From: Marivita hallyeonensis
GTDB taxonomy: Bacteria; Pseudomonadota; Alphaproteobacteria; Rhodobacterales; Rhodobacteraceae
NCBI RefSeq assembly: GCF_900129875.1
Contig: NZ_FQXC01000001.1
Span: 496,001-560,000, forward strand
Direction: 5' to 3'
Length of the DNA stretch: 64,000 nt
Below, one piece after another: positions 212 to 55,225 of this stretch. The notes under the pieces were generated by a model. The model was not told the origin of the DNA. It was given only the letters and a program-made list of their open reading frames with translations, and searched no databases. Every line of letters begins with the position of its first letter. The stretch's first letter is position 1. A program made the position numbers and the translations under genes.

Positions 212-281
212 GCGAATGGCCGCAATGCGGGCTGCAAGCGCAGCAATTGGGATATATGGCGAGTTACCGCTATGGGCCGTC
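212..281 (+). repeat. Dispersed oriented repeat, copy R1
   Basis: It has the palindromic core GCTGCAAGCGCAGC at 231-244 and the terminal GGGCCGT at 274-280. GGGCCGT also pairs with ACGGCCC at 289-295 to form a hairpin. The copy lies 21 nt past the stop of the int1 gene. See the finding on the twelve-copy repeat family. Confidence 0.75.
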
Positions 282-301
282 CTCTCGAACGGCCCTTCAG
301 T

Positions 302-934
302 CTAGATTTCAATAGCTTCCGCAATCGCCAAGGCATCCTCAAGTTCGACGCCCAAGTACCGGACTGTGCTGTCCATCTTGGTGTGTCCAAGGAGAAGCTG
401 AACGGCACGAAGATTGCCCGTCTTCTTGTAAATCTGCGTCACCTTCGTCCGCCTCATCGAATGCGTGCCATATGCGCTGGCTTCTAGGCCAATTGATGTG
501 ACCCAGTCCCGGACAATGCGGGCATATTGGCGGGTGGAAATGTGAAGGCGTTCGTGAAACCGGCCTGGCCAAAGATACTCGGACCCGACCATGAGCTCGT
601 CTTCCATCCACTTTTCGACCGAAGCGCGCGTACCTTCTGATATCTCAAATCGAACGGGCTTCTGTGTTTTGCTTTGAAGCACCGATGCCCGTTCTTTGAT
701 CTGACCAGACGCCATGACATCGACAACTTTCATCCTCACTAGGTCACATCCACGCAGTTTGCTGTCGATCGCCATGTTGAACAACGCGAGGTCTCGATGG
801 TTCTCCGCAAGTTCAAGTCTGACGCGGATCGCCCAGACGTGTTTTGGTTTCAGTGGTCGTTTCTGGCCAACGATACGTCCCTTGTTCCATGCGGGTCTTA
901 GCGCGCGAATGGCTGGTAGGTTTGGTGTTTCCAT
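302..934 (-). CDS. Small tyrosine recombinase (phage-integrase family), copy int1
   Basis: A 210-aa tyrosine recombinase that would cut and rejoin DNA through a 3'-phosphotyrosine. It consists of little more than the catalytic domain; the usual N-terminal core-binding domain is almost absent. Visible catalytic elements are the Arg of SKLRGCDLV, the Lys of QSKTQKP, the HSMRR box (HxxR), the LLLGHTKM histidine and the Tyr of VRYLGV. The start at 934 is chosen because GGAGG sits 7 nt upstream; an upstream in-frame start at 973 has no comparable site. The protein is about 99% identical to int2 at 20.8 kb and clearly related to the pseudogene at 3.6 kb. Oriented repeat R1 lies just past its stop. 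The target site is unknown. Confidence 0.85.
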   Translation of the reverse strand: METPNLPAIRALRPAWNKGRIVGQKRPLKPKHVWAIRVRLELAENHRDLALFNMAIDSKLRGCDLVRMKVVDVMASGQIKERASVLQSKTQKPVRFEISEGTRASVEKWMEDELMVGSEYLWPGRFHERLHISTRQYARIVRDWVTSIGLEASAYGTHSMRRTKVTQIYKKTGNLRAVQLLLGHTKMDSTVRYLGVELEDALAIAEAIEI

Positions 935-1244
935 GACTGATCCTCCGATCCGCCATGCCCTCCACAACGACAACCCGACGTTGACAAGACATCATATCAC
1001 AGGATTGCTGCGCTGCCTCTGAGGTCGGCTTCGAGCCCAAACCCGGTCATTGTGGTCTTATGCTGCGCGCGTGTGCAGCACAAAAAAACGCCGCATTTGC
1101 TCCGATGGTGGCGCTGCGTGGCGGCGAAGATACTGCCATTCGTTGGCAGTGCTGCGACTATTTTGAGGGGAACTCACAGGTCGCGGGACGAAGTGTGAAT
1201 TCGCTGCGAGTGCACCAATGTCGGCCTAAAGTCTTCTTCTAAGC
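935..1244. other. Intergenic region without recognisable genes
   Basis: About 310 bp between int1 and the GNAT gene. It must hold the int1 promoter. I see no conserved ORF, terminator or repeat core; the short frames here have no ribosome-binding site and no family resemblance. Confidence 0.5.
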
Positions 1245-1715
1245 TCAGGCCAGGGTGTACTTCTTACAGACCGCACCGGGTTTGCTTTGATAAGTATGAA
1301 AGCCAATCGCATCGTAGAAAGCGAGACCGGATTCATTGGCCGCTCCAATCGTGGCGTCTATTTCAGTCACGTTCGCTTCCCGCGCAGCATCCAGCGAAGA
1401 GGCAAATAATGCCTTGCCTACGCCACGACCTGCCGCTTTGGCGTTTACATAAGTTCCGATGATGCCCCATCCTTCAGGAAGACCATATGCGTTGACTTCT
1501 GTCGCCCGTTTCAATGACTGGAAACCGAGGATTTCACCATCGTCATCGACTGCAACTGAGCAACGCAAACGATCTGGGTGATTGACGTAATGTGTCGACA
1601 CGTGCGCAACGCTGCTGGGTCTCTCACTTTTCCAAACTGATAGAATGTCTCGCAAGATTTGGCTCATTGCAGCAGCGTCTTCTGCCAAAGCCTCTCTGAC
1701 CGTCACCTGCGTCAT
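1245..1715 (-). CDS. GNAT-family N-acetyltransferase
   Basis: A 156-aa single-domain acetyltransferase of the GNAT fold. The acetyl-CoA loop is visible as KAAGRGVGKALF (about residues 94-105, the R/QxxGxG/A motif), followed by the usual C-terminal AFYDAIGFH segment. The start at 1715 (MTQVTVREA) is preferred to the frame's upstream start at 1796, which would run back through the stop of the preceding gene. The ATG lies 5 nt after that stop, so the two are very likely one transcript. The acceptor substrate cannot be read from the sequence. Confidence 0.8.
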   Translation of the reverse strand: MTQVTVREALAEDAAAMSQILRDILSVWKSERPSSVAHVSTHYVNHPDRLRCSVAVDDDGEILGFQSLKRATEVNAYGLPEGWGIIGTYVNAKAAGRGVGKALFASSLDAAREANVTEIDATIGAANESGLAFYDAIGFHTYQSKPGAVCKKYTLA

Positions 1716-1720
1716 GCGGA

Positions 1721-2191: not shown

Positions 2192-2304
2192 GTTTGGTCT
2201 CCAAGGCTTCAGCGTCCACCCTACTGATGTGTGTGAGATTCAACAGGGTCAAAAAGTGTGGAAGCTGACATTTGCCGCAGAACAGTCTCTCGGGAGGTTT
2301 GGGC

Positions 2305-3050
2305 TCACTTCGGACCTGTCAAGGTTTGGTGTCGCTCGAAAGTCGCGAACGCTTTTGATGCGAGGGCTTCACGATACTACTTCGAATGTCGATAACAGCT
2401 TGCTCAACATTTCAGAGAGGAGAACTTTAGTGACGGTCAATTGTCTGATGCTCGACGTTGATGGCGTACTAGTGGATGGCCGTCCAAAGGATGGATTGCG
2501 TTGGGACCATGATCTGCAGAAGCACATGAAAATACCGACTGATGTTCTCGTCGAAGAGTTCTTCGAAGCTGAGTGGAATGACATCGTCGTTGGCAAAAAG
2601 GCACTATTGCCGACGCTTGCGGGGGTCCTAAGGCGCATCGCGCCCACGGTCGAAGCTAATGATTTGGTAGCTTACTGGTTTAAAATGGACTCCAGAGTTG
2701 TCGAACCAGTTCTCTCCGACATTCGTGCTGCAAGGCGAGGTGGGATTTCTGTCTATTTGGCAACGAACCAAGAGCACATGCGCGCGGCCTATCTGATGGA
2801 GGTGATGCGACTGTCTGAAGACGTGGACGGGATCGTGTACTCGGCGCAAGCAAGAAGCAAGAAGCCTCAGCCTGAGTTTTTTCGTTTCGCGGAGAACGCA
2901 GTCGGCCGCCGACCGCATGAGTTGCTTTTGGTTGATGACACAATGCCAAACGTCAGTGCTGCGCAATCGGAGGGTTGGAACGCTGTCCACTGGGATCGAA
3001 CTGAAGAACTGCGCACCATATTGCAACGTCACATCAAGAACTAGGGCTCG
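2305..3050 (+). repeat. Duplicated segment carrying HAD copy 1 (pairs with 37277-38025)
   Basis: About 745 bp, including upstream sequence from GGGCTCACTT to just after the stop codon, recurs in inverted orientation at about 37277-38025. By eye the copies differ at a few per cent of positions. The sharp end just past the stop codon suggests a defined duplication unit. Confidence 0.7.
2430..3044 (+). CDS. HAD-like hydrolase (phosphatase), copy 1
   Basis: A 204-aa haloacid-dehalogenase-like hydrolase. Motif I is LDVDGVL (nucleophile D9, second Asp D11), motif II is LATNQ, motif III the Lys of SKKPQPEFF and motif IV LLVDDTMPNV, so the catalytic set is complete. It probably dephosphorylates a small metabolite. 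The GTG start at 2430 follows GAGAGGAG by about 6 nt; the frame extends further upstream but has no better site. A nearly identical copy lies inverted at 37283-37897, and the similarity starts about 125 bp upstream of the start codon and stops 5-7 bp after the stop codon. The natural substrate is unknown. Confidence 0.8.
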   Translation: MTVNCLMLDVDGVLVDGRPKDGLRWDHDLQKHMKIPTDVLVEEFFEAEWNDIVVGKKALLPTLAGVLRRIAPTVEANDLVAYWFKMDSRVVEPVLSDIRAARRGGISVYLATNQEHMRAAYLMEVMRLSEDVDGIVYSAQARSKKPQPEFFRFAENAVGRRPHELLLVDDTMPNVSAAQSEGWNAVHWDRTEELRTILQRHIKN

Positions 3051-3160
3051 AAGCCGACATTGGTTTCGCGCAACCAGTTCGCCATAATGTTCGGCGAGCG
3101 CTTCGACGCTTGAGCATCTGAAACCGCATGGGCCGGACCGGATACACAAAGTTCAGGACA

Positions 3161-3259
3161 CTCCCGACTGACAACGCCAGCATTGAAGCCTTCAGAGGCT
3201 ACAACAATGAAGTCCCGCACAGTGCAATCGGGAACAACGTCCCAGCCGCGCTTATGTAA
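3161..3259 (+). pseudogene. IS3-family transposase (OrfB) remnant
   Basis: A short open frame reads PTDNASIEAF directly joined to RGYNNEVPHSAIGN and ends VPAALM-stop. These are two hallmark pieces of the IS3 OrfB integrase core C-terminus (PTDNAFIEAFNGRF... and ...YNxVRPHSAIG). The stretch of about 25 residues that normally separates them is missing, so this is an internally deleted fossil. No terminal inverted repeats or OrfA are visible nearby. Confidence 0.7.
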
Positions 3260-3612
3260 TTGCGGGGCACGGCCAGCCAGTCTGTGTTATCATATAGTCG
3301 GGAAGCTTCCCCCAAGCAGGGGCAGTTTCGGTAGCACTTCAAAACTTGAACAGACCTAACGTACCAGCACGGATTCAAAAAGTGAGCATGTCTTAGGTTC
3401 GGTTCATCTTCGCCGGTTTTCGTAAAGGCCTCTGAAGCCGATACTCATTTTCGATGCAGCATCAGGCAAGGACGACTCAAAGCGGCCTTTTGCAATCCCA
3501 GCGATGGAACAGCTTGAGATCCTCCGACAGCGGTCATCCGTTCCGACCGTACACTTATTCCGTAAGCGCGGTGCTGATGTCTTGGGATGGAGGGAGGATT
3601 GGAGGGCAAATC
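3260..3612. other. Intergenic region without recognisable genes
   Basis: About 350 bp of low-complexity-free sequence between the IS3 remnant and the recombinase pseudogene. Its short open frames look like shadows and lack ribosome-binding sites. I see nothing else in it. Confidence 0.5.
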
Positions 3613-4246
3613 ATGCCAAGAGTGCAACCTCCCGCAGTCACACCGAAACGAAAAGCATGAAACAAGGGGAGGATCATCGGTCAAAAACGTCCGTTGCTGC
3701 CTAAACAGGTCTGGGCAATCCGCGCACGATTAGAGCTTGCGGGTGACCTACGCGACCTGGCTTTCTTCAACGTCGCAATTCATAGCAAACTGCGCGGCTG
3801 CGATCTGGTCAAACTTGCCGTGACGGATCTTGTGCAGAATGATCGTTTCCGAGAGCGTGTTTCGGTGATCCAGAGCAAGACCAAGCGACCAGTTCAATTC
3901 GAACTGACGGAAAACACGCGACAAACCGTGTTGGATTGGATCAAGTCGCCAGAGGTGTTTGCCTACAGGTTCATGTTCCCAAGTCGGTTTCATGACCGTC
4001 CGCACGTATCAACCCGACAGTATGGACGGCTTGTTCCGCGACTGGGTGACTTAGGTTGGCCTAAAATCGAGCGGCTACGGCACCCATTCGCTTCGCCGTA
4101 CGAAGGCAGCTGAGATTTACCGAAACACAAGTAACCTCCGCGCGGGGCAATTGTTGCTCGGTCACACCAAGGTCGACAGTACTGTACGCTATCTTGGTGT
4201 TGAAGTCGAAGACGCTCCGACAATTGCTGAACGGATCGACATCTGA
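3613..4246 (+). pseudogene. Decayed third copy of the small tyrosine recombinase
   Basis: ATG 3613 follows GGAGG at the same kind of spacing as int1. The frame hits a TGA where int1 and int2 have Trp (PAWNKG became A-stop-NKG). It then continues as GRIIGQKRPLLPKQVWAIR, SKLRGCDLV and STRQYGRLV, before losing frame in the region of the HxxR box near 4040-4115. The remainder, NLRAGQLLLGHTKVDSTVRYLGV, resumes in the next frame to TGA 4244-4246. One nonsense codon plus one frameshift make it inactive. It faces opposite to int1 and int2. Confidence 0.85.
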
Positions 4247-7229: not shown

Positions 7230-7641
7230 CCTCTGGATCTGCGGTTAAACCTGCAAGCTTTGACCCGAGGCTTGAACGCGTAGGCCTATAAAAACTCCAC
7301 GGCCTGTGCTTCCAGCGCCTCTATTGGCACAGCCTTCAGTGTGGTGTCAGTTTTGCAGAAGTCGACGATTGCGAACGGCTGCAACGGTGACATGCGCCGC
7401 GCCGCAACACCAAACATGCCGCAGGCGCAAGCGGATGCTGCGTCAGCAAAGATGCGAAACTCAAAGTTGGAAATGTCCGGCTGAGCAGACCTTGGCTCCG
7501 CCAAAATGCTGCGCGATCGATCAATGTCCGCTTCGGGGAAGCTGCATCGCGGCGACGCGACACAAGGTCAATGGCCGGTAAGGGCCGTAAGTCATTTACG
7601 CTCAGCTCAAGTACACATTGGGGGATATTCTGACCATCAGG
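7230..7641. other. Convergent intergenic region carrying repeat R2
   Basis: About 410 bp between two converging genes. Apart from repeat R2 I see no supported feature. A 72-codon minus-strand frame at 7286-7504 has no ribosome-binding site or family resemblance. Confidence 0.5.
7524..7592 (+). repeat. Dispersed oriented repeat, copy R2
   Basis: The left half is of the GTCCGCTTCGGGGAAGCTGC type, followed by a degenerate GCGGC arm, with the terminal GGGCCGT at 7582-7588. It lies between converging genes. Confidence 0.7.
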
Positions 7642-11895: not shown

Positions 11896-12350
11896 AGATA
11901 TCCTCACGAACCAAAATCGGGCACAACCGACAAAGATGTGTGTCATACTCGCTTGAGTTGAAAAGACCGCATTTTTCGGTGATCTTCAAAGGCTTTGTTT
12001 TAACTTCACCAGTATTCTTTGACCGGGAAAACAAGGTCTGAGCACCCACGCTCCCTTTTCGTCACGAAAGACAAGCACTTTATGGACCCTAAATTGCATC
12101 GGAGAGCGATTGCATTTGGCAGTTTTTGCAGTGACTTCAAGCAACATCGAAAAAGGCGGATGCCCTGTACTGCATTGTGTAGGGCCATTCTTGCAGCAAA
12201 GAACCGCAATCGTGGGCCTCGTTCACGCGTCGAATTGCCTTTTTTTGGGGAGGTTCCGTAATGACTATGCACGCGCAATCGTACCAACTTGGGATCAGAC
12301 GACGAAGGATGCGTCCGCCCCAAAATGACCGTCTCGCACGAGATAAGGTT

Positions 12351-12418
12351 AACGTCTGCTTCCGGGAAGCTGCAATGCAGCATTGAAGCGCACTCTCAGC
12401 GTCTGATAAGGGCCGTCC
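12351..12418 (+). repeat. Dispersed oriented repeat, copy R3
   Basis: Core GCTGCAATGCAGC at 12369-12381 (perfect 6-bp arms) and GGGCCGT at 12410-12416. Confidence 0.75.
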
Positions 12419-12519
12419 CCTTCAGAGCTCAAAGCAGCCACAACGGCTGGTGATTTCCCGAAGTTACAATCGCATAAGGGCAGATGGCATTCATCGACCG
12501 GAAGAATTGCCTACGTGGT

Positions 12520-12539
12520 TTTGGTGCGGAAGCACCAAA
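12520..12539 (+). other. Stem-loop with GGAA tetraloop
   Basis: TTTGGTGC and GCACCAAA form a perfect 8-bp stem around GGAA, a GNRA-class tetraloop. There is no T-tract, so it is not a standard terminator. It lies about 90 nt upstream of the regulator gene and could be in its leader. Confidence 0.4.
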
Positions 12540-12564
12540 GCCTCATACGACCCTCAGGTCAGCT

Positions 12565-12579
12565 TGTTATACCAGTTAA
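12565..12579 (+). promoter_or_regulatory. Candidate GntR operator, site 1
   Basis: TGTTATACCAGTTAA lies upstream of the regulator gene. ATACCAGTTA recurs at 13424-13433 in front of the RuBisCO-like gene, and both are next to GTTATAC. FadR-type regulators often bind TGGTAT/ATACCA arms. Binding is inferred. Confidence 0.45.
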
Positions 12580-12627
12580 GCGGATATAGGCTCGCTCAGA
12601 GGTAACTCAGAGGAAGTCAGCGAAGCA

Positions 12628-13365
12628 ATGGCACGCTACCGTTCAAAACAAACAGAATTTGATGTCGAGCCCATCACGCGCCAAAAGCTTTCGGATCAAG
12701 TGTTTGATCGGCTTTGGGAGATGATCGTGTCCGGAGAACTCAAGCCGGGCGATATAATTCCGTCTGAGCGGAAGCTAATGGAAAAATTCGCCGTCGGTCG
12801 TCCCGCTGTCCGTGAAGCTTTGCAGGCGCTGGCGAATAAAGGTGTCATCACGATTTCGCATGGCGAACGGAGCCGCGTGAATGAGCTGAGCGCCAATATT
12901 GCGCTGGACCAGGTGGATGATGTGGCGAAATTGCTTTTGTCGGCTGAGCCTTCCAACTTGGAGCATCTCAAACAAGTTAGGAAAATCCTTGAAGCGGGCA
13001 CCGTGCGCATTGCAGCGGAACAGCGCAACGACGAGGACGTGCGTCAACTACGCAAGCTGGTCGATAAACAAAAGGGCCAACTGAACAATCCCAAAGGGTT
13101 CATCGAAACCGACATCGCGTTTCACACGGCAATCGCCAATGCCTCGCGAAATCCTGTGTTGCAAGCGGTGACGCGCCCGATGCTGACGTGGCTATTTGAG
13201 TACTACAAGCCTTTGCTTCACTGGTCTGGTCGCGAAGACACGACCCTGTTGGAGCATATGAAGTTGGTCGATCACTTAGAGGCCCGCGATGCGGATGCTG
13301 CGGCAGCTTTGATGCGTGAGCATCTGGACCGATCTGATCCGCTCTACACGAATTCTGAGATCTGA
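12628..13365 (+). CDS. FadR/GntR-family (FCD) regulator of the apionate locus
   Basis: A 245-aa repressor-type protein. An N-terminal winged helix (about residues 17-85: LSDQVFDRLWEMIVSGELKPGD, then VGRPAVREALQALANKG) is followed by a helical FCD ligand domain (about 100-235) with the conserved Asp and His of ETDIAFHTAIANASRN. Its position directly upstream of the RuBisCO-like, kinase and oxidoisomerase genes, and the shared ATACCAGTTA element in front of both, suggest that it controls that operon and itself. The inducer is probably a pathway acid, but this is not shown. Confidence 0.8.
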   Translation: MARYRSKQTEFDVEPITRQKLSDQVFDRLWEMIVSGELKPGDIIPSERKLMEKFAVGRPAVREALQALANKGVITISHGERSRVNELSANIALDQVDDVAKLLLSAEPSNLEHLKQVRKILEAGTVRIAAEQRNDEDVRQLRKLVDKQKGQLNNPKGFIETDIAFHTAIANASRNPVLQAVTRPMLTWLFEYYKPLLHWSGREDTTLLEHMKLVDHLEARDADAAAALMREHLDRSDPLYTNSEI

Positions 13366-13410
13366 TTTCTCATCCGAGCGGATGAGACAAGGCTTGACTG
13401 TCCGCCACAG

Positions 13411-13434
13411 TGTTATACTGATCATACCAGTTAG
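13411..13434 (+). promoter_or_regulatory. Candidate GntR operator, site 2
   Basis: GTTATACTGATCATACCAG is an imperfect inverted repeat centred on TGATCA, ahead of the RuBisCO-like gene. A TTGACT at 13394-13399 could be a -35 element, but the nearest TATACT is only 14 nt away, so the promoter itself is uncertain. Confidence 0.5.
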
Positions 13435-13545
13435 AGTTGAGCCTGCATTGATCACCAAACAGACTTACTGTGGTGAGCGACATCTGCGGGACATGGGGAG
13501 GTCCATCATGCGCCGTAATGACTGCACTTGTCCCGGTAGGTGCTC

Positions 13546-14802
13546 ATGACCGATCCGATCCGCATTGAAGCCGACTACCTGATTGAAACAGCCTACGTCC
13601 CTGAACAGGCCGCAGAAATCATGGCGGGCGAGCAGTCTTCTGGCACATTCCGTCCGGTTCCAGGGGAGACACCCGAACTGAAGGAACGCGCTGCAGCACG
13701 AGTTGAGCGGTTGACGTCGATGGGTACGTTTGAAGCACCATCCTTGCCCGGTGCTTGCCAACCTACTGATGGCCAAAACTACCAACGCGCGCATGTCACC
13801 CTGTCATGGCCGCAAGACAACCTCGGACCATCCTTGCCGAACCTGATCGCGACGATCGCGGGCAACCTTTTCGAACTAAAGCCATTCTCTGGCCTGCGTC
13901 TGCTGGATGTGCGTCTGCCATCGCCCTTTGCTGCCGCCTATCCCGGGCCGAAGTTCGGAATCGAAGGGACACGCAGACTTGCCGGTGTCGAAGGCCGACC
14001 GTTGATCGGGACGATCATCAAACCCAGCGTTGGACTTAACGCCGAAGACACCGGCGCGTTAGCTTCCGAACTCTGCCAAGGCGGCATCGACTTTATCAAG
14101 GATGACGAATTGCAGGCCGATGGTCCCGCGTGCCCGTTCGATGATCGGGTGCGTACCGTGATGGCTGCGGTCAACGCGGCGGCGGACCGCACAGGCAAAA
14201 AGACCATGGTGGCTTTTAACCTGACCGGCGAAATTGACGAGATGCGTCGTCGCCACGATCTGGTTCTGGCAGAGGGTGGCACCTGTATCATGGCGAGCGT
14301 CAATGCAGTCGGTATGTCAGGCATGATCGCGCTTGGACGTCACACGCAACTGCCAATCCATGCGCATCGGTGTGGCTGGGGCGCGCTGACGCGGTCCCCC
14401 ATGCTTGGTTGGGCCTATCCGGCATGGTCCAAGCTTTGGCGATTGGCCGGGGCGGACCACATGCACGTCAACGGGATCGACAACAAGTTCAGCGAAGACA
14501 ATGACAGCGTCATCGCTTCGGCTCGGTCCCTGTCCGATCCGATGTTCAAGGCCAACCCGATGCGGGCCGTGCCAGTTTTTTCTTCGGGCCAAACCGTGCA
14601 TCAAGCCCCTGCCACATTGGCAGCAGCCGGATCAGATGATTTGCTCGTGACGGCAGGTGGCGGCGTCGTCGCGCACCCGGATGGCGTCGCGGCTGGAGTA
14701 ACTGCGATGCGAGAGGCGTATGAGGCGGCCCTGTCCGGCGTTGATCTGCAGGCCTACGCCAAGGATCATCCAGCCCTCGCCGCAGCGCTGAAAGCCTTTT
14801 GA
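13546..14802 (+). CDS. oiaX: RuBisCO-like protein, probable 3-oxo-isoapionate-4-phosphate decarboxylase or transcarboxylase/hydrolase (OiaX/OiaT type)
   Basis: A 418-aa form IV RuBisCO-large-chain homologue. The active-site set can be followed: K159 in TIIKPSVG, the carbamylation-type K185 with metal ligands D187/E188 in GGIDFIKDDE, His in IHAHRCGWG (271-279), HMHVNG (305-310), K314 of the loop-6 equivalent, SSGQTVHQ and the phosphate-site TAGGGVVAHP. The neighbours (DUF1537 kinase, then ApnO-like protein) match the D-apionate pathway, in which an RLP acts on 3-oxo-isoapionate 4-phosphate. OiaX decarboxylates it and OiaT splits it to 3-phosphoglycerate and glycolate; the sequence alone does not let me choose, so the symbol is tentative. 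ATG 13546 is preferred to GTG 13540. Confidence 0.75.
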   Translation: MTDPIRIEADYLIETAYVPEQAAEIMAGEQSSGTFRPVPGETPELKERAAARVERLTSMGTFEAPSLPGACQPTDGQNYQRAHVTLSWPQDNLGPSLPNLIATIAGNLFELKPFSGLRLLDVRLPSPFAAAYPGPKFGIEGTRRLAGVEGRPLIGTIIKPSVGLNAEDTGALASELCQGGIDFIKDDELQADGPACPFDDRVRTVMAAVNAAADRTGKKTMVAFNLTGEIDEMRRRHDLVLAEGGTCIMASVNAVGMSGMIALGRHTQLPIHAHRCGWGALTRSPMLGWAYPAWSKLWRLAGADHMHVNGIDNKFSEDNDSVIASARSLSDPMFKANPMRAVPVFSSGQTVHQAPATLAAAGSDDLLVTAGGGVVAHPDGVAAGVTAMREAYEAALSGVDLQAYAKDHPALAAALKAF

Positions 14803-14804
14803 TC

Positions 14805-16151
14805 GTGACCGCCCCGCTGCTTACCTTCTATGGCGACGACTTCACCGGCTCGTCCGCGGTGATGGAGGTGCTGAGTTTCGCTGGTATCCCCACGATGCTG
14901 TTTCTGGAAGCTCCGGACGCCGACGTTCTGGCCCGCTTTCCCGGGTTGCAAGCTGTCGGGGTGGCCGGGGTCGCGCGCTCAAAAGACCCTGCCTGGATGC
15001 GCGCGCATCTTCCAACCGTTTTTGAAGGTTTGAAACAGCTTGGCGCGCCGTTGATGCACTACAAAGTCTGCTCGACCTTCGACAGCGCACCGGACATTGG
15101 CTCTATCGGTGTGGCGGCGGAAATCGGGAAACAGGTCTTTGACCCTGATTGGATACCGCTTGTCGTCGGCGCGCCTGCGATTGGGCGGTATCAGGTCTTT
15201 GGGAACCTGTTCGCGGCGGCGGGGGATGCCGTTCACCGACTTGACCGTCATCCCGTTATGTCGCGCCATCCCGTGACCCCCATGGATGAAGCAGATCTGG
15301 GACGGCATTTGTCCCACCAGACCGAATTGCGCACAGGTTGTGTCGATTTCCGTGCCATGAAGACCGGACAGGCGGATGCGGCGTTAAAGTCGGCCCTCTC
15401 TAAAGGTGCTCAGATCATTGCGATGGACGCGATGGACGACGCGACCTTGCAGGAAGCCGGACGCATGATCGCCGAAGGCAACACATCGTTTGCCATCGGA
15501 TCCCAAGGGGTGGAATACGCGCTGGTTGCCCATTGGCGCGCGTCAGGTCAGCTGGCGCAGGAACATGCAACGCCACGGCTCAGTACGGTTGATCAACTTT
15601 TTGCCGTCTCCGGTTCTTGTGCGCCGACAACTGCCGCGCAGATTGACCATGCGCAGGCCAAAGGGTTCGAAATCCTCGACTTTGACGCCGCGCAAGCGGT
15701 CGACCCGAACGCGCTACAGGCCGAGACGGATCGCGTGCGACAGACATCATTGCAGCTCCTGTCCGAAGGCCGAGATGTTCTGGTGACCTCTGCACGTGGG
15801 CCAAACGATCCGTCCCTCGCGCGTATGTCCGAGGCAATAAATCGCGCCGGGATAAGCAATGCTCAAGCCAACGAGTATTTGGGGCAAGCCTTGGGCAATC
15901 TGGTTGCAGACATCCGGCTTGCAACAGGGTTGCCACGCGCAGCAATCGGCGGCGGGGATACGTCAGGCCACGCGCTGACCGCATTGCAGGCCGACGCGTT
16001 GTCGGCAGTCGCACCTCTCGCACCGGGCGCACCTCTGTGTCGTATCCACAGCGCGCGTGCGCCACAGATCGACGGCCTGGAGGTCACGTTAAAAGGGGGC
16101 CAGATGGGCGCTCCGGACTTCTTTATTCACGCAAAAGGAACGACAACATGA
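14805..16151 (+). CDS. oiaK: DUF1537 four-carbon-acid-sugar kinase family, probable 3-oxo-isoapionate kinase
   Basis: A 448-aa ATP-dependent sugar-acid kinase. It has the N-terminal YGDDFTGSSAV (the family's xDDxTGA motif, about residues 8-18) and the C-terminal nucleotide-binding part with GGDTSGHAL and the LKGGQMGAPDFF tail. In the apionate pathway this family phosphorylates 3-oxo-isoapionate for the RLP. The GTG at 14805 begins 2 nt after the RLP stop; a TTG at 14799 would overlap it, and either would be coupled. The specificity is inferred from the neighbours, since other DUF1537 kinases act on threonate, erythronate and related acids. Confidence 0.75.
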   Translation: MTAPLLTFYGDDFTGSSAVMEVLSFAGIPTMLFLEAPDADVLARFPGLQAVGVAGVARSKDPAWMRAHLPTVFEGLKQLGAPLMHYKVCSTFDSAPDIGSIGVAAEIGKQVFDPDWIPLVVGAPAIGRYQVFGNLFAAAGDAVHRLDRHPVMSRHPVTPMDEADLGRHLSHQTELRTGCVDFRAMKTGQADAALKSALSKGAQIIAMDAMDDATLQEAGRMIAEGNTSFAIGSQGVEYALVAHWRASGQLAQEHATPRLSTVDQLFAVSGSCAPTTAAQIDHAQAKGFEILDFDAAQAVDPNALQAETDRVRQTSLQLLSEGRDVLVTSARGPNDPSLARMSEAINRAGISNAQANEYLGQALGNLVADIRLATGLPRAAIGGGDTSGHALTALQADALSAVAPLAPGAPLCRIHSARAPQIDGLEVTLKGGQMGAPDFFIHAKGTTT

Positions 16152-16984
16152 CAAGCATCGCTCTCTTCGGCGCAGGTGGCAAAATGGGCGTGCGTCTGGC
16201 CACGAACCTCAAGACGGCGCCATACGATCTGCTTCCGGTCGAAGTGAAACCCGAAGGTCAGGCCCGGCTTAAAGCGGAAACAGGATTGACCTGTGTAGAC
16301 CAAGGGCAAGCCCTAAGCGCTGCCGACACCGTAATCCTCGCCGTGCCGGATCGGGCCATCGGCAAGGTGCTTTCGGGCTTTGTGGATGACCTAAAACCGG
16401 GCACCGCCGTGATTATGCTGGATGCCGCTGCCCCCCACGCCGAGACATTGCCAGAACGCGACGACATCACGTATTTCGTGGCCCACCCGTGCCACCCTCC
16501 GCTGTTCAATGACGAAACCGACGCGGCTGCCAAGACAGACTACTTTGGTGGCATCGCGGCCAAGCAACACATCGTATGCGCATTGGCGCAAGGCCCCGAA
16601 GATCACTATGCCAAATGCGAGGAAATCGCCCGCGTCTTTTATGGTCCTGTCATGCGATCTCACCGCGTCACGGTCGAGCAGATGGCTCTTCTGGAACCAG
16701 CGTTGTCGGAATCGGTCGGGGCAACTTTTGCCAAAGTCTTGAAAGACGCCACAGATGAGGCAGCCCGCCGGGGCATCCCCTATCAGGCGGCAGAAGACTT
16801 TTTACTTGGCCACCTGACGATCCTCTTGGCCGTGGCCTTTGGTGTCCAGCCCGGTGGCAAACTGTCGGACGGCTGCATGAAGGCCATCGAAGAGGCCGAA
16901 CCCGTGATCTTCAGGGATGGGTGGATGGACAACATTTTTTCAGCCGAGGCGGTGAAGGCGTCTGTGAAATCCATTTGCGATTGA
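16148..16984 (+). CDS. apnO: ApnO-like D-apionate oxidoisomerase (6-phosphogluconate-dehydrogenase-type C-terminal domain)
   Basis: A 278-aa NAD(P)-binding protein. The Rossmann motif ALFGAGGKMGVRL starts at residue 5 and DTVILAVPDRAIGK follows; the C-terminal helical part corresponds to the PGDH_C-type domain. ApnO oxidises and rearranges D-apionate to 3-oxo-isoapionate, the substrate of the neighbouring kinase. The ATG overlaps the kinase stop by 4 nt, so the three genes form one coupled operon in the order RLP, kinase, oxidoisomerase. The family also includes uncharacterised dehydrogenases, but the context strongly favours ApnO. Confidence 0.75.
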   Translation: MTSIALFGAGGKMGVRLATNLKTAPYDLLPVEVKPEGQARLKAETGLTCVDQGQALSAADTVILAVPDRAIGKVLSGFVDDLKPGTAVIMLDAAAPHAETLPERDDITYFVAHPCHPPLFNDETDAAAKTDYFGGIAAKQHIVCALAQGPEDHYAKCEEIARVFYGPVMRSHRVTVEQMALLEPALSESVGATFAKVLKDATDEAARRGIPYQAAEDFLLGHLTILLAVAFGVQPGGKLSDGCMKAIEEAEPVIFRDGWMDNIFSAEAVKASVKSICD

Positions 16985-17230
16985 TGAACGTTGGTGGCTT
17001 TCGGCGATCATTCAGCCGGACGTACTCAACACACAGATCGGCTTGCACAGCACAGGTGCCGTGAAATAGTGGATTGTTTTGGACCAAAATGGCTTTGGGG
17101 AAATCTGCTTGGTCAAAAGCTTCCAGTGCCGCCGTCGCGCGTGGTCACGCGTTAGCAACAGCTGTATTTACAATAGCCCGATTTGTCCGCGTCGCAGCCA
17201 TTTCGGCCTTAGATATGCTGCGCAACCGAT

Positions 17231-17299
17231 CAAGGTCCGCTTTGGGGAAGCTGCACTGCGGCAAAGTATCTCGCGGTGAACGGCTGGTAGGGGCCGTGA
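17231..17299 (+). repeat. Dispersed oriented repeat, copy R4
   Basis: AAGGTCCGCTTTGGGGAAGC opens the copy, GCTGCACTGCGGC is the core at 17250-17262 and GGGCCGT closes it at 17291-17297. It is one of the best-preserved copies. Confidence 0.8.
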
Positions 17300-17441
17300 G
17301 TGTTTACACGAACTGTGCGCGCATAGCGGCAGATCGTTCTCAGATCGATTTGTATGAGTTCAGCACATCGTCGAGTCTGCAGTTTAGGTTATTTGGACCG
17401 CTCATCTGTGAGTGGTTCCAAAGGGTTCTCTCCATGGTTTG

Positions 17442-17459
17442 CGAATGCATTTGCATTCG
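17442..17459 (+). promoter_or_regulatory. Palindrome upstream of the TAXI-TRAP genes
   Basis: CGAATGCA-TT-TGCATTCG is a perfect 8-bp-arm inverted repeat about 50 nt upstream of the binding-protein start. It differs from the candidate GntR site upstream, so a separate regulator may act here. Function inferred. Confidence 0.45.
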
Positions 17460-17510
17460 TGTGCATTGGGGTTCTAGACTAAAGCCATAAACATGAATTG
17501 GGAGGAAGCT

Positions 17511-18470
17511 ATGAATACGTTTACGAAGATGGCTGCTGTCGCCGCGATGGTGCTTGCCACACCAGCAATCGCGCAAGAGCGCCTGGCACTTGGTGCAACT
17601 AATGCCCAATCGTCCCATTACGCATATTTTGCCTCGCTCGCAAAGATCATCAACGAAAGCTATCCGGACAAGTATCAGGCAAGCGTGGTTGAGACTGGTG
17701 CAACCGTCGACAACCTGAAGCGGATGGCGCGGGGTCAGTTGGATGTGGGGCTTATCACCACGTCCGCCTTGTTCCATGCGAACAATGGCATCAAGACATT
17801 TGATGGTGAACAGATCGATTCACCTTTGCTGTGGGCCTACAGTCTGGCCCCGCAGAATGTAATTGTGCGTCGGGATGCGGGCGTAAATAGCCTCGAAGAA
17901 CTTGCAGGTACCCGATTTGGCCCGGGTCAGCGTGGTAGCTCGACTGAAGCCACTAGCCAAGAGGTGCTTTCGCTGTTCGGGGTAGAACCGGAATGGGTGC
18001 GTGGATCAAACGGCGAACTGGCAGCTGCGATCAAGGACAATCGCGCAATTGGCTTTATAAAATCCGCTGTTGGAACACGCTTTGATGCGCTGACCACGGA
18101 TATTGCGACATTCACACCGGTACAGGTGCTGCCGGTTCCGGAAGACAAGATCGCGATGATCCGTGAGCAACTCCCCGAGCTGTCCATTGTCGACATGCCC
18201 GGCGGTGACATGGAAAACACGGGTCCGTACCAGACCTGGGGCTTTATGATTGGTGTCTCCGCGCGTCCAGATATGCCAGATGAGGTTGCTTATGACCTGG
18301 TCAAAGCGGTTATGGAAGACGATGTCGAGCAGGTCACGGCGTTTCCGGCTATTGAGGGCGCGAACCTTGCCGAACTGACGCTGAACTATGCTACGTCGCC
18401 CTTGCATCCTGGTGCGATCCGTTGGTTTGAAGAAAACGGGTACGACGTTCCGGACCGTCTGCGGCCATAA
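17511..18470 (+). CDS. TAXI-family TRAP transporter solute-binding protein
   Basis: A 319-aa periplasmic binding protein with a signal peptide (MNTFTKMAAVAAMVLATPAIAQ, cleaved before ERLALG). LALGATNAQSSHYAYFASLAKIIN opens the mature chain in the TAXI manner, and GTRFGPGQRGSSTEAT is the central ligand-binding loop. It should deliver the substrate to the fused permease encoded next. The start at 17511 follows GGGAGG; the upstream frame start at 17493 precedes that site. Placed directly behind the apionate genes, it probably imports the pathway substrate. Confidence 0.85.
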   Translation: MNTFTKMAAVAAMVLATPAIAQERLALGATNAQSSHYAYFASLAKIINESYPDKYQASVVETGATVDNLKRMARGQLDVGLITTSALFHANNGIKTFDGEQIDSPLLWAYSLAPQNVIVRRDAGVNSLEELAGTRFGPGQRGSSTEATSQEVLSLFGVEPEWVRGSNGELAAAIKDNRAIGFIKSAVGTRFDALTTDIATFTPVQVLPVPEDKIAMIREQLPELSIVDMPGGDMENTGPYQTWGFMIGVSARPDMPDEVAYDLVKAVMEDDVEQVTAFPAIEGANLAELTLNYATSPLHPGAIRWFEENGYDVPDRLRP

Positions 18471-18495
18471 ACCTTAGCTGAGCGGCAATATTTTA

Positions 18496-18520
18496 ACCCG
18501 CGCATTTCTTACGCGCGGGT
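18496..18520 (+). other. Intercistronic stem-loop between TRAP binding-protein and permease genes
   Basis: ACCCGCGC and GCGCGGGT form a perfect 8-bp stem with a 9-nt loop and no T-tract. Such hairpins often protect the upstream message or partly stop transcription, giving more binding protein than permease. The role is inferred. Confidence 0.6.
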
Positions 18521-37042: not shown

Positions 37043-37151
37043 TGCCTACTACGTTCGACCTCGAACCAAGGCACCGGATGTCAGGTGACCAGTAACCGAA
37101 ATCCACGTAACGCCTCTCGCCTGAACGTGTTTGTTCCTTTGAGCCTTTCCT

Positions 37152-37220
37152 AAGGTCCGCTTTGGAGAAGCTGCGCTGCCGCATTGATTGAACCAATGAA
37201 AGGCAACTCTGGGCCGTCCC
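37152..37220 (+). repeat. Dispersed oriented repeat, copy R7
   Basis: AAGGTCCGCTTTGGAGAAGC opens it, with GCTGCGCTGCCGC as a degenerate core and GGGCCGT at 37211-37217. It lies just outside the second HAD copy. Confidence 0.75.
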
Positions 37221-37276
37221 GGATGGTCGATCCCGGGCTTCAGATGGAGATGCTGCGCCGCCTCCGAGGTCTGTTG

Positions 37277-38025
37277 TGAGACCTAGTTCTTGATGTGACG
37301 TTGCAATATGGTGCGCAGTTCTTCAGTTCGATCCCAGTGGACAGCGTTCCAACCCTCCGATTGAGCAGCACTGACGTTTGGCATTGTGTCATCAACCAAA
37401 AGCAACTCATGCGGTCGGCGGCCGACTGCGTTCTCCGCGAAACGAAAAAACTCAGGCTGAGGCTTCTTGCTTCTTGCTTGCGCCGAGTACACGATCCCGT
37501 CCACATCTTCAGACAGTCGCATCACCTCCATCAGATAGGCCGCGCGCATGTGCTCCTGGTTCGTTGCCAAATAGACAGAAATCCCATCTCGCCTTGCAGC
37601 ACGAATATCGGAGAGAACTGGTTCGACAACTCTGGAGTCCATTTTAAACCAGTAAGCTACCAAATCATTAGCTTCGATCGTGGGCGCGATGCGCCTCAGG
37701 ATCCCCGCCAGCGTCGGCAACAGTGCCTTTTTGCCAACGACAATGTCATTCCACTCAGCTTCGAAGAACTCTTTGACGAGAACATCAGTCGGTATTTTCA
37801 TGTGCTTCTGCAGATCATGGTCCCAACGCAATCCATCGTTTGGACGGCCATCCACTAGTACGCCATCAACGTCGAGCATCAGACAATTGACCGTCACTGA
37901 AGTTTTCCTCTCTGAAATGTTGAGCAAGCTGTTATCGACATTCGAAGTAGTATCGTGAAGCCCTCGCATCAAAAGCGTTCGCTTCTTTCGAGCAACACCA
38001 AACCTTGACAGGTCCAAAGTGAGCC
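37277..38025 (-). repeat. Duplicated segment carrying HAD copy 2 (pairs with 2305-3050)
   Basis: Inverted second copy of the 745-bp unit at 2.3-3.05 kb. Recombination between the two would invert about 34 kb that includes both catabolic loci. Confidence 0.7.
37283..37897 (-). CDS. HAD-like hydrolase (phosphatase), copy 2
   Basis: A 204-aa near-duplicate of the protein at 2430-3044, with the same intact motifs (LDVDGVL, LATNQ, SKKPQPEFF, LVDDTMPNV). Visible changes are conservative (for example K/N at RPKDG, V/I at AGVLRR and RRGG/RRDG). Both copies keep the GTG start and a GAGAGGA ribosome-binding site, so both look functional. The base changes are scattered, which suggests a duplication that is not very recent. 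Confidence 0.8.
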   Translation of the reverse strand: MTVNCLMLDVDGVLVDGRPNDGLRWDHDLQKHMKIPTDVLVKEFFEAEWNDIVVGKKALLPTLAGILRRIAPTIEANDLVAYWFKMDSRVVEPVLSDIRAARRDGISVYLATNQEHMRAAYLMEVMRLSEDVDGIVYSAQARSKKPQPEFFRFAENAVGRRPHELLLVDDTMPNVSAAQSEGWNAVHWDRTEELRTILQRHIKN

Positions 38026-38208
38026 CAAAGTACCTGATGCTACGAAGATCGCGAATGTCTATTTCAGCACCGTGATAGCGTTAGCGAGGAAGAAGACCGC
38101 ATGCGCTTCTCAGGAACTTCTTTGGGCTGCTGCTTCCCACCATACTCTGCTTTGAAAGCCGTCCAATCCATCGTGAAAATCCAACCAACTCTGACAGGTG
38201 GAATTCCA
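37898..38208. other. Intergenic region upstream of HAD copy 2
   Basis: The first 130 bp belong to the duplicated unit. The remainder holds only a 35-codon minus-strand frame beginning MDWTAFKAEYGG (38171 to 38064) with no clear ribosome-binding site. Nothing else is recognised. Confidence 0.4.
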
Positions 38209-38901: not shown

Positions 38902-39221
38902 TTCGTCTCCTATCTAGTGCATTGGATTTCACAGCAATACACTCTGCTTGCAAGCGTGCCCAATTCTTTACGCATATTGCGAAACACCCAAAGGTCTGGT
39001 GCGTACTGACGGATTGCGATCACCCGAAAGTCGACCTTGGCAACCAAAGATCAGAGGTCCGCTTGGTCCGCGTTGCGGTCATCTGCTTCGGCGAAATGCT
39101 GCTCTCGCGAGGCAATGTTCGCTATGGGGGCTGCAACCGCAGCATCTGGAAAGACGGGCGAAGGTCCACTCAGGGCCGTTAATTCCCTTTCCCCATCTCA
39201 ATCGTCGCTGCCATCCTTGGC
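38902..39221. other. Intergenic region carrying repeat R8
   Basis: About 320 bp; repeat R8 is the only recognisable element. Its short plus-strand frames read through the repeat and are not credible genes. Confidence 0.5.
39112..39182 (+). repeat. Dispersed oriented repeat, copy R8
   Basis: Core GCTGCAACCGCAGC at 39130-39143, AAGGTCC at 39161-39167 and GGGCCGT at 39173-39179. It is a full copy. Confidence 0.8.
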
Positions 39222-40685: not shown

Positions 40686-41311
40686 CCCGCGTTCGCCTCC
40701 CCCAACCAACAATCGATGCCGTGATGTCAGGAGAGTGAAACAGTGCTGGTCGCGGTTGTCTAGCGTCGCCTGAACCCGAACTTGCGATCAGTATATAAAT
40801 GATCGGTGAGGCGGGCAGCGCAATTGCGGAACGAAGGGCAAGCATAGTCGGGTTTTCCGCGGGTTCACCCATGGCTACGTTTTTGCCAGTGCAGCGAACG
40901 GCGGCTATTTGGGCTGCAATTGCGGAACCTAAGACCACGTTTGAACGGCAGGAAAGGGCCGTAAGCGACGCGACGTTCTCCCTCACGTCGTGGGATTCTG
41001 AATCGCCCTTCAGGTCAGTTTCGATTCAAGGCCTGCTGGATCCTGCGCTTTGGGCGGAGGATCTCCTGAAACCAGTCCTCGAGTTGCTGACGAGGTTCTT
41101 GCTTCGATTTTACCCACCTCCAAGGTCGGCAGAGAGCCAAACTACTCTGATGCCGCGGAATTGGGCAACATAGTTTTTCTTCATCTTGCAGCAGTGGTCA
41201 CCTTGCCTTTCGTATGGTCCTGGCCTCGTCGACGAAAGCGTTCAGGACATCCCCCAGGGTGCTGCTGAAGTGGCCGAAACGTTCTGTGGCATCTTCCTTT
41301 TGCATTGCAAT
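40686..41311. other. Intergenic region carrying repeat R9
   Basis: About 625 bp. R9 lies in the middle. The 41.0-41.3 kb part has short frames on both strands that may be eroded coding sequence, but I recognise none. Confidence 0.45.
40894..40965 (+). repeat. Dispersed oriented repeat, copy R9
   Basis: GCTGCAATTGCGG is a partly decayed core (from 40913); GGGCCGT is at 40956-40962. Confidence 0.7.
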
Positions 41312-45044: not shown

Positions 45045-45116
45045 GCGAACGGCGGCTTTGCCGACTGCATCCGCAGCATCTTGACGGTTGGGCGAAGGTC
45101 CGGTCTGGGCCGTCCC
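45045..45116 (+). repeat. Dispersed oriented repeat, copy R10
   Basis: The core is partly decayed (ACTGCATCCGCAGC, about 45064-45077). AAGGTCC (45095-45101) and GGGCCGT (45107-45113) are intact. Confidence 0.75.
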
Positions 45117-45550: not shown

Positions 45551-45859
45551 TACGACCTCAAGTTTACTTGCGACCCAAGTCTACTTTGAAACAAGCCCTT
45601 CGCAAATGGCAGCTCCGTCCCGCGCTGCCGTCACACGATTGAACCGTCGTTGCGGCGCTGCAGCGAATGGCAGGAAAGCAGGCTGCGACCGCAGCATTCG
45701 AACACCGAGCTCAAAGGCAGCAAAGGGCCGTCAAGTTACACTCCCCTTCGATATTTCATTTGCCTTCGTGAACCCTGAAAGGGGCGTTCTCAATTCGGAA
45801 TGCGCGATTTTGGCTTCAGCGATGCTACTCCCTGACCAAACGAACGATGGGAGCGGCAT
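45551..45859. other. Intergenic region carrying repeat R11 and the sugar-acid operon promoter
   Basis: About 310 bp between divergent genes. R11 occupies the centre. No operator palindrome was recognised. Confidence 0.5.
45662..45735 (+). repeat. Dispersed oriented repeat, copy R11
   Basis: Core GCTGCGACCGCAGC at 45682-45695 and GGGCCGT at 45725-45731. Confidence 0.75.
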
Positions 45860-53634: not shown

Positions 53635-53694
53635 TATGACTGGCCTTCCACCATGAGTCCTGCTTGCCCGGATCATCTCTGCTGTTGATCGCGG

Positions 53695-54147
53695 TTATTC
53701 GGCCGGCTCGACGTCCAACGGGCCTTCGAACTGCACGTAAATGATTGTCGGCACGTCTGTCGGAAAACTGTCCTGGTGGGCTTCACCACCAATCTGGTAC
53801 CAGTAGTCGCCCGGCCGTTGAAGCGGCACATCTTCTTCGGATTGACCTGCAATCCAGTGTTTGGAGCCGCCGGAAATCACCACGGCATGGTACCCATGCG
53901 TGTGGGTGTGCATGGCCCCGGGAAAGTTGGGCGGGAATTTCAACAATACGGCGGATGGTCCTGTTTGCGGGTTCCCATTGAGCACAGCGATTTCAATCGG
54001 TGTGTCGCCGAATGGTTGAAACACAGCATCCGCAAGAGCGACCGCTGCATTGCCGACATGGCTGTCTGCCGAGACCGGCTGTGCGAGCAAGCCGACCGCG
54101 ATAAGCATGGGAAGGAAAGAGCGGCAGGAAGTTTTCAAGATCGTCAT
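53695..54147 (-). CDS. Exported cupin-domain protein
   Basis: A 150-aa protein with a signal peptide (SFLPMLIAVGLLAQPVSA, cleaved before DSHVGN). Cupin motif 1 is PGAMHTHTHGYHAVVISGG, whose His residues can bind a metal; motif 2 is less clear around PGDYWYQIGGEAHQD. A secreted cupin could detoxify or sense a small molecule. ATG 54147 has AAGGA upstream. It diverges from a LysR gene 80 nt away. Confidence 0.75.
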   Translation of the reverse strand: MTILKTSCRSFLPMLIAVGLLAQPVSADSHVGNAAVALADAVFQPFGDTPIEIAVLNGNPQTGPSAVLLKFPPNFPGAMHTHTHGYHAVVISGGSKHWIAGQSEEDVPLQRPGDYWYQIGGEAHQDSFPTDVPTIIYVQFEGPLDVEPAE

Positions 54148-54227
54148 TTTCTGGTCCTTGCTATTGTTGCCAGGAGAACGTCTTCGCATTATGCAATCGA
54201 GACAATGGATGATTATTGATACTAAAA

Positions 54228-55157
54228 ATGGAAAATTTCGATATAGAGGCTGTCGACGTGAAGTCAATGCGTCTGATCCTAGGAATCGCGCGATCAGGAT
54301 CGGTCACTGATGCCGCGTTCGACGAGGGATTGTCTCAATCAACTGCGAGTTATCGTTTGGACCGGCTTCGTGACGCGCTGAATGATCAGATCTTCATTCG
54401 CGGGCCCTCCGGCATGGAACTGACAATCGCGGGGGTTCGCATCATCCGGAGCTTTTCGAAGGTACTGGAAGAACTGGAAGCTCTGGGCAAATCTGCGGCC
54501 TTCGATCCGACGACCGCAACGATGGACTTCGTCGTCGCGGCGACCGCGTTTGAAATCGAAACGGTATTGGCTCCGTTTCTGAACGAAATAATGAATTCGG
54601 CTCCCGGGTGCCGTCTCATCGTTCGCCCGATGGAGACCCGGAAACTTGCAGAAGCGTTGCGCGATGATTTCGATATTGCGTTGCTGTCTGAACCGCCGAA
54701 ATCGGGTGCTTTGAAGCAGAAACTCTTACTGCGAGACGAGCTTGTAACCTATTTCGATCCAAAGGTTCGTACCGCGCCTCTGACGCTGGACGAGTTCTGC
54801 GCTGCGGAACATGCGGTTGCCAGTCTCGGCGGCAGTGCGCGTAGTGGAGTTGATTTGGAGCTGCGGAAACTGAACCGGAAACGCCGGATCAAACTTGAAA
54901 CGAGCAATATCGAGTCGCTTGCGCCGATGATGAAGGGCACGCCGCTGATCACAACGATCCCATCGAAACTGGGTCCAGGTCTCATGCGTGACTTCCACAG
55001 CGTCGCGTGTCCGCTGAACTTCCCGACAATTCCGTTTCACCTTGTCTGGCATGCCAGGAAGGATGGCGATGCGGCGCATGGCTGGTTGAGGAGAACTCTT
55101 TCTGAGGTCGCCCGAAGCGAGCGGGCTAGCTCGACCTCATCTCAACATGTGAAATGA
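54228..55157 (+). CDS. LysR-family transcriptional regulator
   Basis: A 309-aa LTTR. The winged helix lies at about residues 9-70 (DVKSMRLILGIARSGSVTDAA, then GLSQSTASYRLDRLRDALND), followed by the effector domain. No strong ribosome-binding site precedes ATG 54228; a TTG at 54216 is an alternative. It is divergent from the cupin/SnoaL pair and so probably regulates it. Confidence 0.75.
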   Translation: MENFDIEAVDVKSMRLILGIARSGSVTDAAFDEGLSQSTASYRLDRLRDALNDQIFIRGPSGMELTIAGVRIIRSFSKVLEELEALGKSAAFDPTTATMDFVVAATAFEIETVLAPFLNEIMNSAPGCRLIVRPMETRKLAEALRDDFDIALLSEPPKSGALKQKLLLRDELVTYFDPKVRTAPLTLDEFCAAEHAVASLGGSARSGVDLELRKLNRKRRIKLETSNIESLAPMMKGTPLITTIPSKLGPGLMRDFHSVACPLNFPTIPFHLVWHARKDGDAAHGWLRRTLSEVARSERASSTSSQHVK

Positions 55158-55225
55158 ATGTCCGCAATGCGGGCTGCGATCGCAGAATCTGGAAGTTAGG
55201 TCGAAGGTCCGGTAATGGGATGTAC
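55157..55225 (+). repeat. Dispersed oriented repeat, copy R12 (3' end decayed)
   Basis: GCTGCGATCGCAG is the core (from 55173) and AAGGTCC is at 55204-55210; the terminal GGGCCGT is lost (ATGGGATGT instead). Confidence 0.6.

Follow-up and report, generated by a model that had tools for sequence, protein, structure and literature searches.

The stretch of Marivita hallyeonensis DNA analysed here (64,000 nucleotides, hereafter the window) comprises bases 496001–560000 of contig C9 (1.11 Mb), in a genome of 4.19 Mb and 20 contigs from the Roseobacter group. It carries twelve copies of a repeat of about 70 bp, which we call site A (R1–R12), together with three genes for a small tyrosine recombinase, one of them broken (int1, int2 and int3), and a second type of site, site B, which lies upstream of int1 and again at the right end of the array (Table 1). 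The A sites separate blocks of genes.

Table 1. Features of the window (positions in the window, read 5' to 3')
Feature	Position	Strand	Remarks
R1	212–280	+	Site A, type 1; about 22 bp beyond the int1 stop codon
int1	302–934	−	Tyrosine recombinase of about 210 aa (PF00589); start taken at the ATG aligned to Met9 of int2
Site B, left part	1014–1054	+	Model positions 2–41; upstream of int1; core AGGTCGGCTTCGAGCCC; module homology ends at GAGCCC
int3	3598–4243	+	Broken recombinase gene in two frames; pieces 56% and 70% identical to int2
R2	7521–7588	+	Site A, type 2 (GGGAAGCTGC)
R3	12349–12416	+	Site A, type 2
Block R3–R4 (4.9 kb)	12411–17297		GntR regulator, RuBisCO-like protein, SBD_N/NBD_C protein, PGDH_C dehydrogenase
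R4	17230–17297	+	Site A, type 2
Block R4–R5 (3.5 kb)	17292–20779		NMT1_3 and DctM transporter proteins
R5	20711–20779	+	Site A, type 1; about 22 bp beyond the int2 stop codon
int2	20802–21461	−	Tyrosine recombinase; protein 99% identical to int1
R6	22103–22170	+	Site A, type 1; terminates the int2 block (1.39 kb)
Block R6–R7 (15.0 kb)	22165–37217		GntR/FCD regulator, two TctA, one TctC, dehydrogenases, DHDPS-family protein, TauE, others
R7	37150–37217	+	Site A, type 2-like (GGAGAAGCTGC)
R8	39112–39179	+	Site A, type 1; top model score
R9	40894–40962	+	Site A, type 1
R10	45045–45113	+	Site A, type 1
R11	45663–45731	+	Site A, type 1; the R10–R11 block is only 0.62 kb
R12	55154–55219	+	Site A, type 1; an insertion sequence has displaced its right end
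IS110-family element	55220–56581	+	PF01548, PF02371; in the GGGCC end of R12; ends ambiguous by a few bases
GGGCC past the insertion sequence, then site B	56582–56690	+	Site B at 56629–56684 by model; no int gene; marks the right-hand limit of the array within the window

The initial annotation had described twelve same-strand repeats of about 70 bp, and this is borne out: a sequence-only model built from the twelve copies, run unfiltered on both strands, found all of them on the plus strand of the window at 41.4–60.9 bits (E ≤ 8.3e-12), with the remaining 26 of the 38 listed matches (E up to 5, both strands) reaching at most 7.7 bits. As the model was trained on these same copies, the scores measure separation from background and are not an independent discovery; a model-free repeat search recovered eight and four of the twelve as the families D1 and D3, respectively. 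The proposed division into two sub-types holds as well, with GGGCTGC or a close variant in R1, R5, R6 and R8–R12, and GGGAAGCTGC in R2, R3 and R4 (GGAGAAGCTGC in R7), and so does the claim that the interiors of two large loci are free of repeats, zero copies falling within 22.2–37.1 kb or 45.7–55.1 kb. The terminal GGGCCGT attributed to all twelve copies stands except in R12, which has lost it because an insertion sequence (IS) of the IS110 family has inserted there, GGGCC now lying on the far side of the element. Over the 140 of 150 aligned site A copies in which the end is recognisable, conservation is 1.7–2.0 bits per base in GGGCCG and then at most 0.43 bits over the next 16 bases.

The GCTGC–GCAGC palindrome within the repeat, for which RNAalifold predicts four pairs in the twelve window copies, and the GC-rich hairpin found after the int stop codons could be taken to mean that the copies are structured RNAs or transcription terminators at operon ends. 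We give this explanation next to no credence: site A has zero matches in Rfam, RNAalifold predicts 0 pairs over 150 copies, covariation in the hairpin was not found (89.2% of cells paired, as compared to 89.5% in shuffles), and the exchange of blocks at the site, described below, would be left unexplained. The first three of these results also led us to reject an attC-like hairpin.

The products of int1 and int2 score 62.1 and 61.6 bits against PF00589 (cut-off 27.1). Arg70, Lys98, His167, Arg170, His193 and Tyr202 (P0001 numbering), which we take to be the catalytic residues of a tyrosine recombinase, are fully conserved across an alignment of nine rows; with 16 rows, conservation of Arg70, His167 and Tyr202 is only nearly complete. 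A search of PDB sequences matched the catalytic part to XerD, XerA and XerH (E 1e-8 to 2.4e-4); for IntI4 the E value was no better than 0.038. A structure prediction for the recombinase was not used (predicted local distance difference test score, pLDDT, 42; predicted template modelling score, pTM, 0.28). Genome contigs hold at least 580 relatives, from which we kept the best 80 loci (71–99% identity); judged by record title, these are mostly from Rhodobacterales genera, with a few from Hyphomicrobiales or Pseudovibrio.

Site A is tightly associated with these genes. Among the 77 of the 80 loci whose sequence continues for 150 bp or more past the int stop codon and which were thus usable, the site lies beyond the stop on the expected strand in 51 at E<10 (in 48 of them at a distance of 21–27 bp) and in 31 at E<0.01, the opposite strand yielding 1 and 0 sites at the same two thresholds. 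Loci with at least 88% int identity have the site in 35 of 39 cases (26 at E<0.01), and those below 88% in 16 of 38 (5 at E<0.01). The remaining sites in the 80 loci, counted up to 10 kb on each side, predominantly have the orientation of the int-adjacent site (at E<0.01, 74 with it and 5 against; at E<1e-3, 57 and 4). The contigs of L141, L150, L152, L156, L167 and L179 break within about 30–180 bp of the recombinase gene, as multiple copies of the module per genome would lead one to expect.

Genome-wide, with 150 of 2264 first-look candidates scored, we found 18 copies of site A: the 12 in the window, three within 12 kb of contig C11 and three on contig C16. The latter contig (95.5 kb) is probably circular, since its ends share an identical overlap of 95 bp. 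Site A is present in 29 of the 61 genomes searched, this one included; outside the family it was found in one of 24, as a weak match (E 0.006). All 15 genomes with an int2 match (E≤1e-30) have the site, as against 14 of the 46 genomes with no such match, and within the family alone the figures are 15 of 15 and 13 of 22. Outside the window, on contigs with at least two listed copies, neighbouring copies no more than 16 kb apart have the same orientation in 30 cases and opposite orientation in 5, while copies more than 16 kb apart split evenly, 8 to 8. Orientation is therefore a property of local clusters.

This bears on one of the three identities suggested for the repeat in the initial annotation, a strand-polar chromosome motif tied to replication direction in the manner of FtsK orienting polar sequences (KOPS). 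The co-orientation of the twelve window copies is what such a motif would predict. We nevertheless reject it as having a vanishingly small chance of being correct: the 18 copies in 4.19 Mb cluster on three contigs, with 12 falling within a single 55 kb stretch, the orientation of distant neighbours is evenly divided, and three copies reside on a Phaeobacter plasmid stretch (L034). When the window DNA from 22 to 46 kb was compared with plasmids, only 63 bp matches were returned, in six records.

The extent of the recombinase module was determined from pairwise homology ends among 94 modules; the pairs are not independent, and L104 and L194 are the same contig. These end positions replaced an anchored identity profile around GGCCC, since hairpin lengths vary. 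On the 3' side, 1554 of 2371 pair ends stop before the end of GGCCC (the GGGCC of the site) and 817 reach it; of the latter, 406 stop at 0/+1, 756 stop within 14 bp and 25 continue for at least 60 bp. Upstream, 260 of 1247 ends reach GGGCTC (GAGCCC in the window direction), with 163 stopping at 0/−1 and one continuing for more than 30 bp. With homology ending sharply on both sides, the module is therefore a sharply bounded unit amid unrelated DNA. GGGCTC lies within 200 bp upstream in 56 of the 94 modules. Site B, located about 105 bp upstream of the recombinase start, has the approximate consensus GAGGTCGGCTTnGAGCCC-N7-CCGATGCTGC-N5-GCACGAATGTCCGCTTT, with the core GAGCC. Where A and B occur within 15 kb of each other, 249 pairs have the same and 28 the opposite orientation (the pairs are not independent). 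Their spacing is bimodal: among the 68 same-strand pairs listed at distances up to 1.5 kb, 29 lie 35–44 bp apart and 24 lie 730–739 bp apart with int between, although only the spacing of the int-less pairs is independent evidence, the site B model having been made from int-upstream sequences. Across the loci examined, we counted 29 composites of A and B, each about 195 bp long and without a recombinase gene; in the window, R12 is followed by the IS110-family element and then by site B.

The suggestion that the repeat is a miniature mobile element applies at most in part: the recombinase-less composite agrees with it, but the units seen to be exchanged are gene-bearing blocks. In its fuller form this alternative posits a self-spreading repeat resembling a miniature inverted-repeat transposable element (MITE), the composite being a recombinase-less derivative of A–int–B and the exchange of blocks being homologous recombination between copies. 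While the bimodal A–B spacing is in line with it, we consider it distinctly improbable, given that 196 A hits yield just the 68 A/B pairs within 1.5 kb, most A copies having no B partner, that neighbouring copies keep their orientation, and that the break points are not scattered along the repeat but always fall at the same position, the end of the copy, even where the other parts of the copies visibly differ (G007:C12/C45).

The break points themselves were located by comparing blocks between genomes. A block of about 6.8 kb between two A sites on C16 is 90–92% identical to a block in G013:C11; the match ends at GGGCCG, and the displayed flanks to the left and right of the block are dissimilar. 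Rightward of this C16 site follows a block that is shared with Litoreibacter instead (76%). At R1, the DNA on the left matches G007:C40 (80% identity) as far as GGGCCG; past this point the window has int1 and G007 has other DNA. G007:C12 and G007:C45 share 201 bp at 98.5% running to a contig end, with unbroken identity from TGGGCCG onwards and differing left halves of the site, and a block in G022:C75 matches Cochlodiniinecator directly from the end of GGGCCG (the Cochlodiniinecator site is below the model threshold and was recognised by eye). This handful of junctions shows the apparent unit of exchange to start at the GGGCC of one site's right end and to end at the right end of the next site, so that it carries its right-side site; both ends are seen in the C16/G013 comparison only. 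Finally, a stretch of 527 bp occurs at 94% identity in two settings: in G007:C33 it adjoins the GGGCC core of an A site, and in Limimaricola the GAGCC core of the B site that precedes the recombinase. The unbroken match between the two resumes four bases past these cores. This single case points to an exchange between A and B. The third identity that had been suggested for the repeat, a recombination site, is strongly supported, among other things by the location of site A beside recombinase genes and by the break points at GGGCC; the recombinase genes adjoining R1 and R5 had gone unmentioned in the initial annotation.

A homologue of the recombinase, 58% identical, is encoded on an Escherichia coli plasmid. 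Used as a query, the E. coli module with its flanks gave matches in 984 of 5426 complete E. coli genomes (some to the flank only), 712 of which have a place covered to at least 80%. In the nine E. coli pairs compared (L217/L218 was left out as a shared locus), the stretch of homology around int starts at −53 to −56 in eight, and its end falls between +33 and +46 in every pair; for L219 the start is at −84/−85 on its own count, the annotated int start lying 30 bp further in. E. coli-type sites, GTCCGCTCCTGGCACAGAGCGGAC or close to it, are co-oriented in AVS0662 (3/3) and in Nissle (3/3, leaving out one pattern match inside a gene), and a pattern search for the E. coli-type core gave no match in the Thauera, Cupriavidus, Vibrio, Novosphingobium and Paracoccus loci (five of seven loci). 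At precisely the point where two empty strains, Nissle and YZLc23-1, carry just one site, AVS0662 has a block of 4.8 kb: a 24 bp core is present at either junction, and outside the core each side matches the empty site. The block holds a frameshifted RNA-directed DNA polymerase gene and a gene for a small protein, with no int match found in it, and at least 80% of the region is present in 77 of the 5426 genomes. The recombinase may have had a part in producing this filled/empty pair. In E. coli NWU_4, a region of a Rac-like prophage (L219:4374–9750) contains inserts between ydaV and a hok gene that differ among strains in the 40 rows listed (a HEPN gene with int, a P-loop ATPase, AbiH and others) and whose flanks end near the same places; the interval is a possible prophage hot spot for the same recombinase family.

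A fixed break point, a block consisting of its body and the site to its right, a maintained orientation, tight linkage to one recombinase family and a precise filled/empty pair in E. coli are what these comparisons of aligned DNA establish. Very probably, the array belongs to an integron-like system that moves multigene blocks and possesses its own small tyrosine recombinase (int1, int2) and the sites A and B. The recombinase itself would perform the exchange at site A. Blocks would leave as circles by recombination between two co-oriented A sites, and circular blocks would enter at A or B; the presence of one cargo beside A in G007:C33 but beside B in Limimaricola would then resemble attC × attI recombination. 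The sites may have kept their co-orientation because oppositely oriented ones would invert a block and not move it, and blocks that lack a recombinase gene would be moved in trans.

The nearest rival is an accretion array of ordinary small genomic islands with recombinases, each of which entered the att site of its predecessor; the int-less blocks would be decayed islands akin to cis-mobilizable elements (CIMEs), and the sites relics of attL and attR. Accretion uses the same recombination chemistry and differs mainly in whether int-less blocks move. It accommodates the position of the site at the gene's 3' end wherever the two are adjacent, such that int marks one end of a block, as well as the one broken int and the many blocks with no int at all. 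Still, we regard it as possible but unlikely, as only 2 of the 11 window blocks have an intact int, a block of merely 0.85 kb lies between two sites in G022:C75, and blocks with no int match have moved or been gained or lost (C16/G013 and the 4.8 kb block of E. coli). Several observations count against the integron-like system as well. Five of the 35 close neighbour pairs are oppositely oriented, site A copies occur in the 14 of 46 genomes with no int2 match at E≤1e-30, and 26 of the 77 loci have no model-detected site at int even at E<10, 22 of these being loci below 88% identity. Exchange between A and B is known from one junction pair, and the 24 bp identity in the E. coli pair is also compatible with homologous recombination. 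In an all-versus-all test of the ends of high-scoring segment pairs (HSPs), 2 of 122 ends (65 HSPs) fell at site A in both loci, one of them being IS110, although this test has little power, since cross-species homology mostly stops before the intergenic site; junctions were therefore inspected one by one, and three further alignments that showed no clear point of exchange are not counted among those described above.

Integrons are the textbook platform for gene cassettes, and the system described here would follow the same array logic with a different recombinase and different sites. As in integrons, the recombinase gene has a proximal site, the array of sites beside it is co-oriented (74 vs 5 and 30 vs 5 in the counts above) with a site at each block's right end, exchange occurs at one edge of the site, and a site of the array may recombine with the proximal site, to judge from a single junction pair. 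Unlike integron integrases, the recombinase has about 210 aa and scores far below the cut-off: P0001 obtains 23.1 bits from the integron integrase profile TIGR02249/IntI (curated cut-off 265), aligned to positions 233–308 of 315 only. The core of attC sites is GTTRRRY/RYYYAAC; inspected by eye, the consensus of 150 site A copies contains no GTTRRRY-type core, and site A thus differs from attC in having neither such a core nor a supported fold. The blocks, moreover, are multigene and reach 15 kb, and the recombinase genes, which read towards an A site, are located within the array itself. The system is integron-like in its working, but it lacks two defining features, an integron integrase and an attC-type core or supported fold.

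Accretion arrays of CIMEs, integrative and conjugative elements (ICEs) and integrative and mobilizable elements (IMEs) consist of att-flanked units with and without recombinase, in tandem and in the same orientation. Att-flanked tandem units, some with no recombinase, are found here too, although many of the sites are intergenic and units can measure a mere 0.6 kb. Among the window proteins scanned, in a search that was not systematic, none was assigned to conjugation or mobilisation. The pdif modules of Acinetobacter plasmids are gene modules between 28 bp sites acted on by the host XerC/XerD; our blocks likewise lie between short tyrosine-recombinase sites, but these are about 70 bp long and have a dedicated recombinase gene beside them. 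Further tyrosine-recombinase islands with variable cargo, as here, are the GInts, which are reported to need four genes for recombination (PMC5385486), and the integron-like elements of Pseudomonas, which have three recombinase genes and in which the authors found no attI site (PMC4542609). Among the matches listed for the open-access literature searched, most subscription papers being outside its scope, we found no description of the present system.

If the integron-like reading is correct, the system would move operons of 5–15 kb rather than single genes, and could account for the shuffling of catabolic and other accessory operons among the chromosomes and plasmids of marine Alphaproteobacteria as well as, through a diverged form of the site, for the changing accessory blocks at fixed loci of E. 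coli. The site model can serve as a search model for such arrays. We are evenly divided on the broader proposal that this is a second, independently evolved cassette-capture system separate from integrons, in which a recombinase of about 200 aa with A and B sites collects, excises and reshuffles operons from Roseobacters to E. coli, and whose site is parasitised by an IS110-type element.

Relatives of the element in R12 occur in a model-detected site (G009:C99:5673) and in a degenerate site that was recognised by eye and is not listed by the model (G000:C16:25389). All three insertions lie after ...TAATGGG, at the same base and in the same orientation, and G015 contains a right-end IS110 fragment with a similar right junction. 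IS1111 members target one end of attC sites, and IS elements target repetitive extragenic palindromic (REP) sequences too (PMC11187229). Site A, hit at a fixed base by IS110-family elements, resembles the attC sites hit by IS1111 members; in contrast to the IS1111/IS110 seekRNA elements described there, the IS110-family element found here targets the GGGCC end of a non-attC site. A stretch that L141:2778–2845 shares with an IS3-family transposase region on the Phaeobacter plasmid (L034:12009–13159) ends about 1 bp from a site A crossover in Actibacterium and is possibly a second type of IS meeting the site.

The cargo of the window includes operon-like gene sets. The int1 block encodes GNAT, HAD and DUF805 proteins, and block R8–R9 a sulfatase. 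Between 12628 and 16984, the GntR regulator, RuBisCO-like, SBD_N/NBD_C and PGDH_C genes stand in a row, presumably forming a sugar-acid catabolic operon. Two inverted copies of a HAD-hydrolase gene (2298–3063 and 37264–38029) are 97% alike over 766 bp; the latter begins about 47 bp past R7, and the former adjoins a segment (3069–3166) matching records annotated as IS256-family or other transposases. Window positions 3164–3483 show an 83% match to contig C16 of the same genome.

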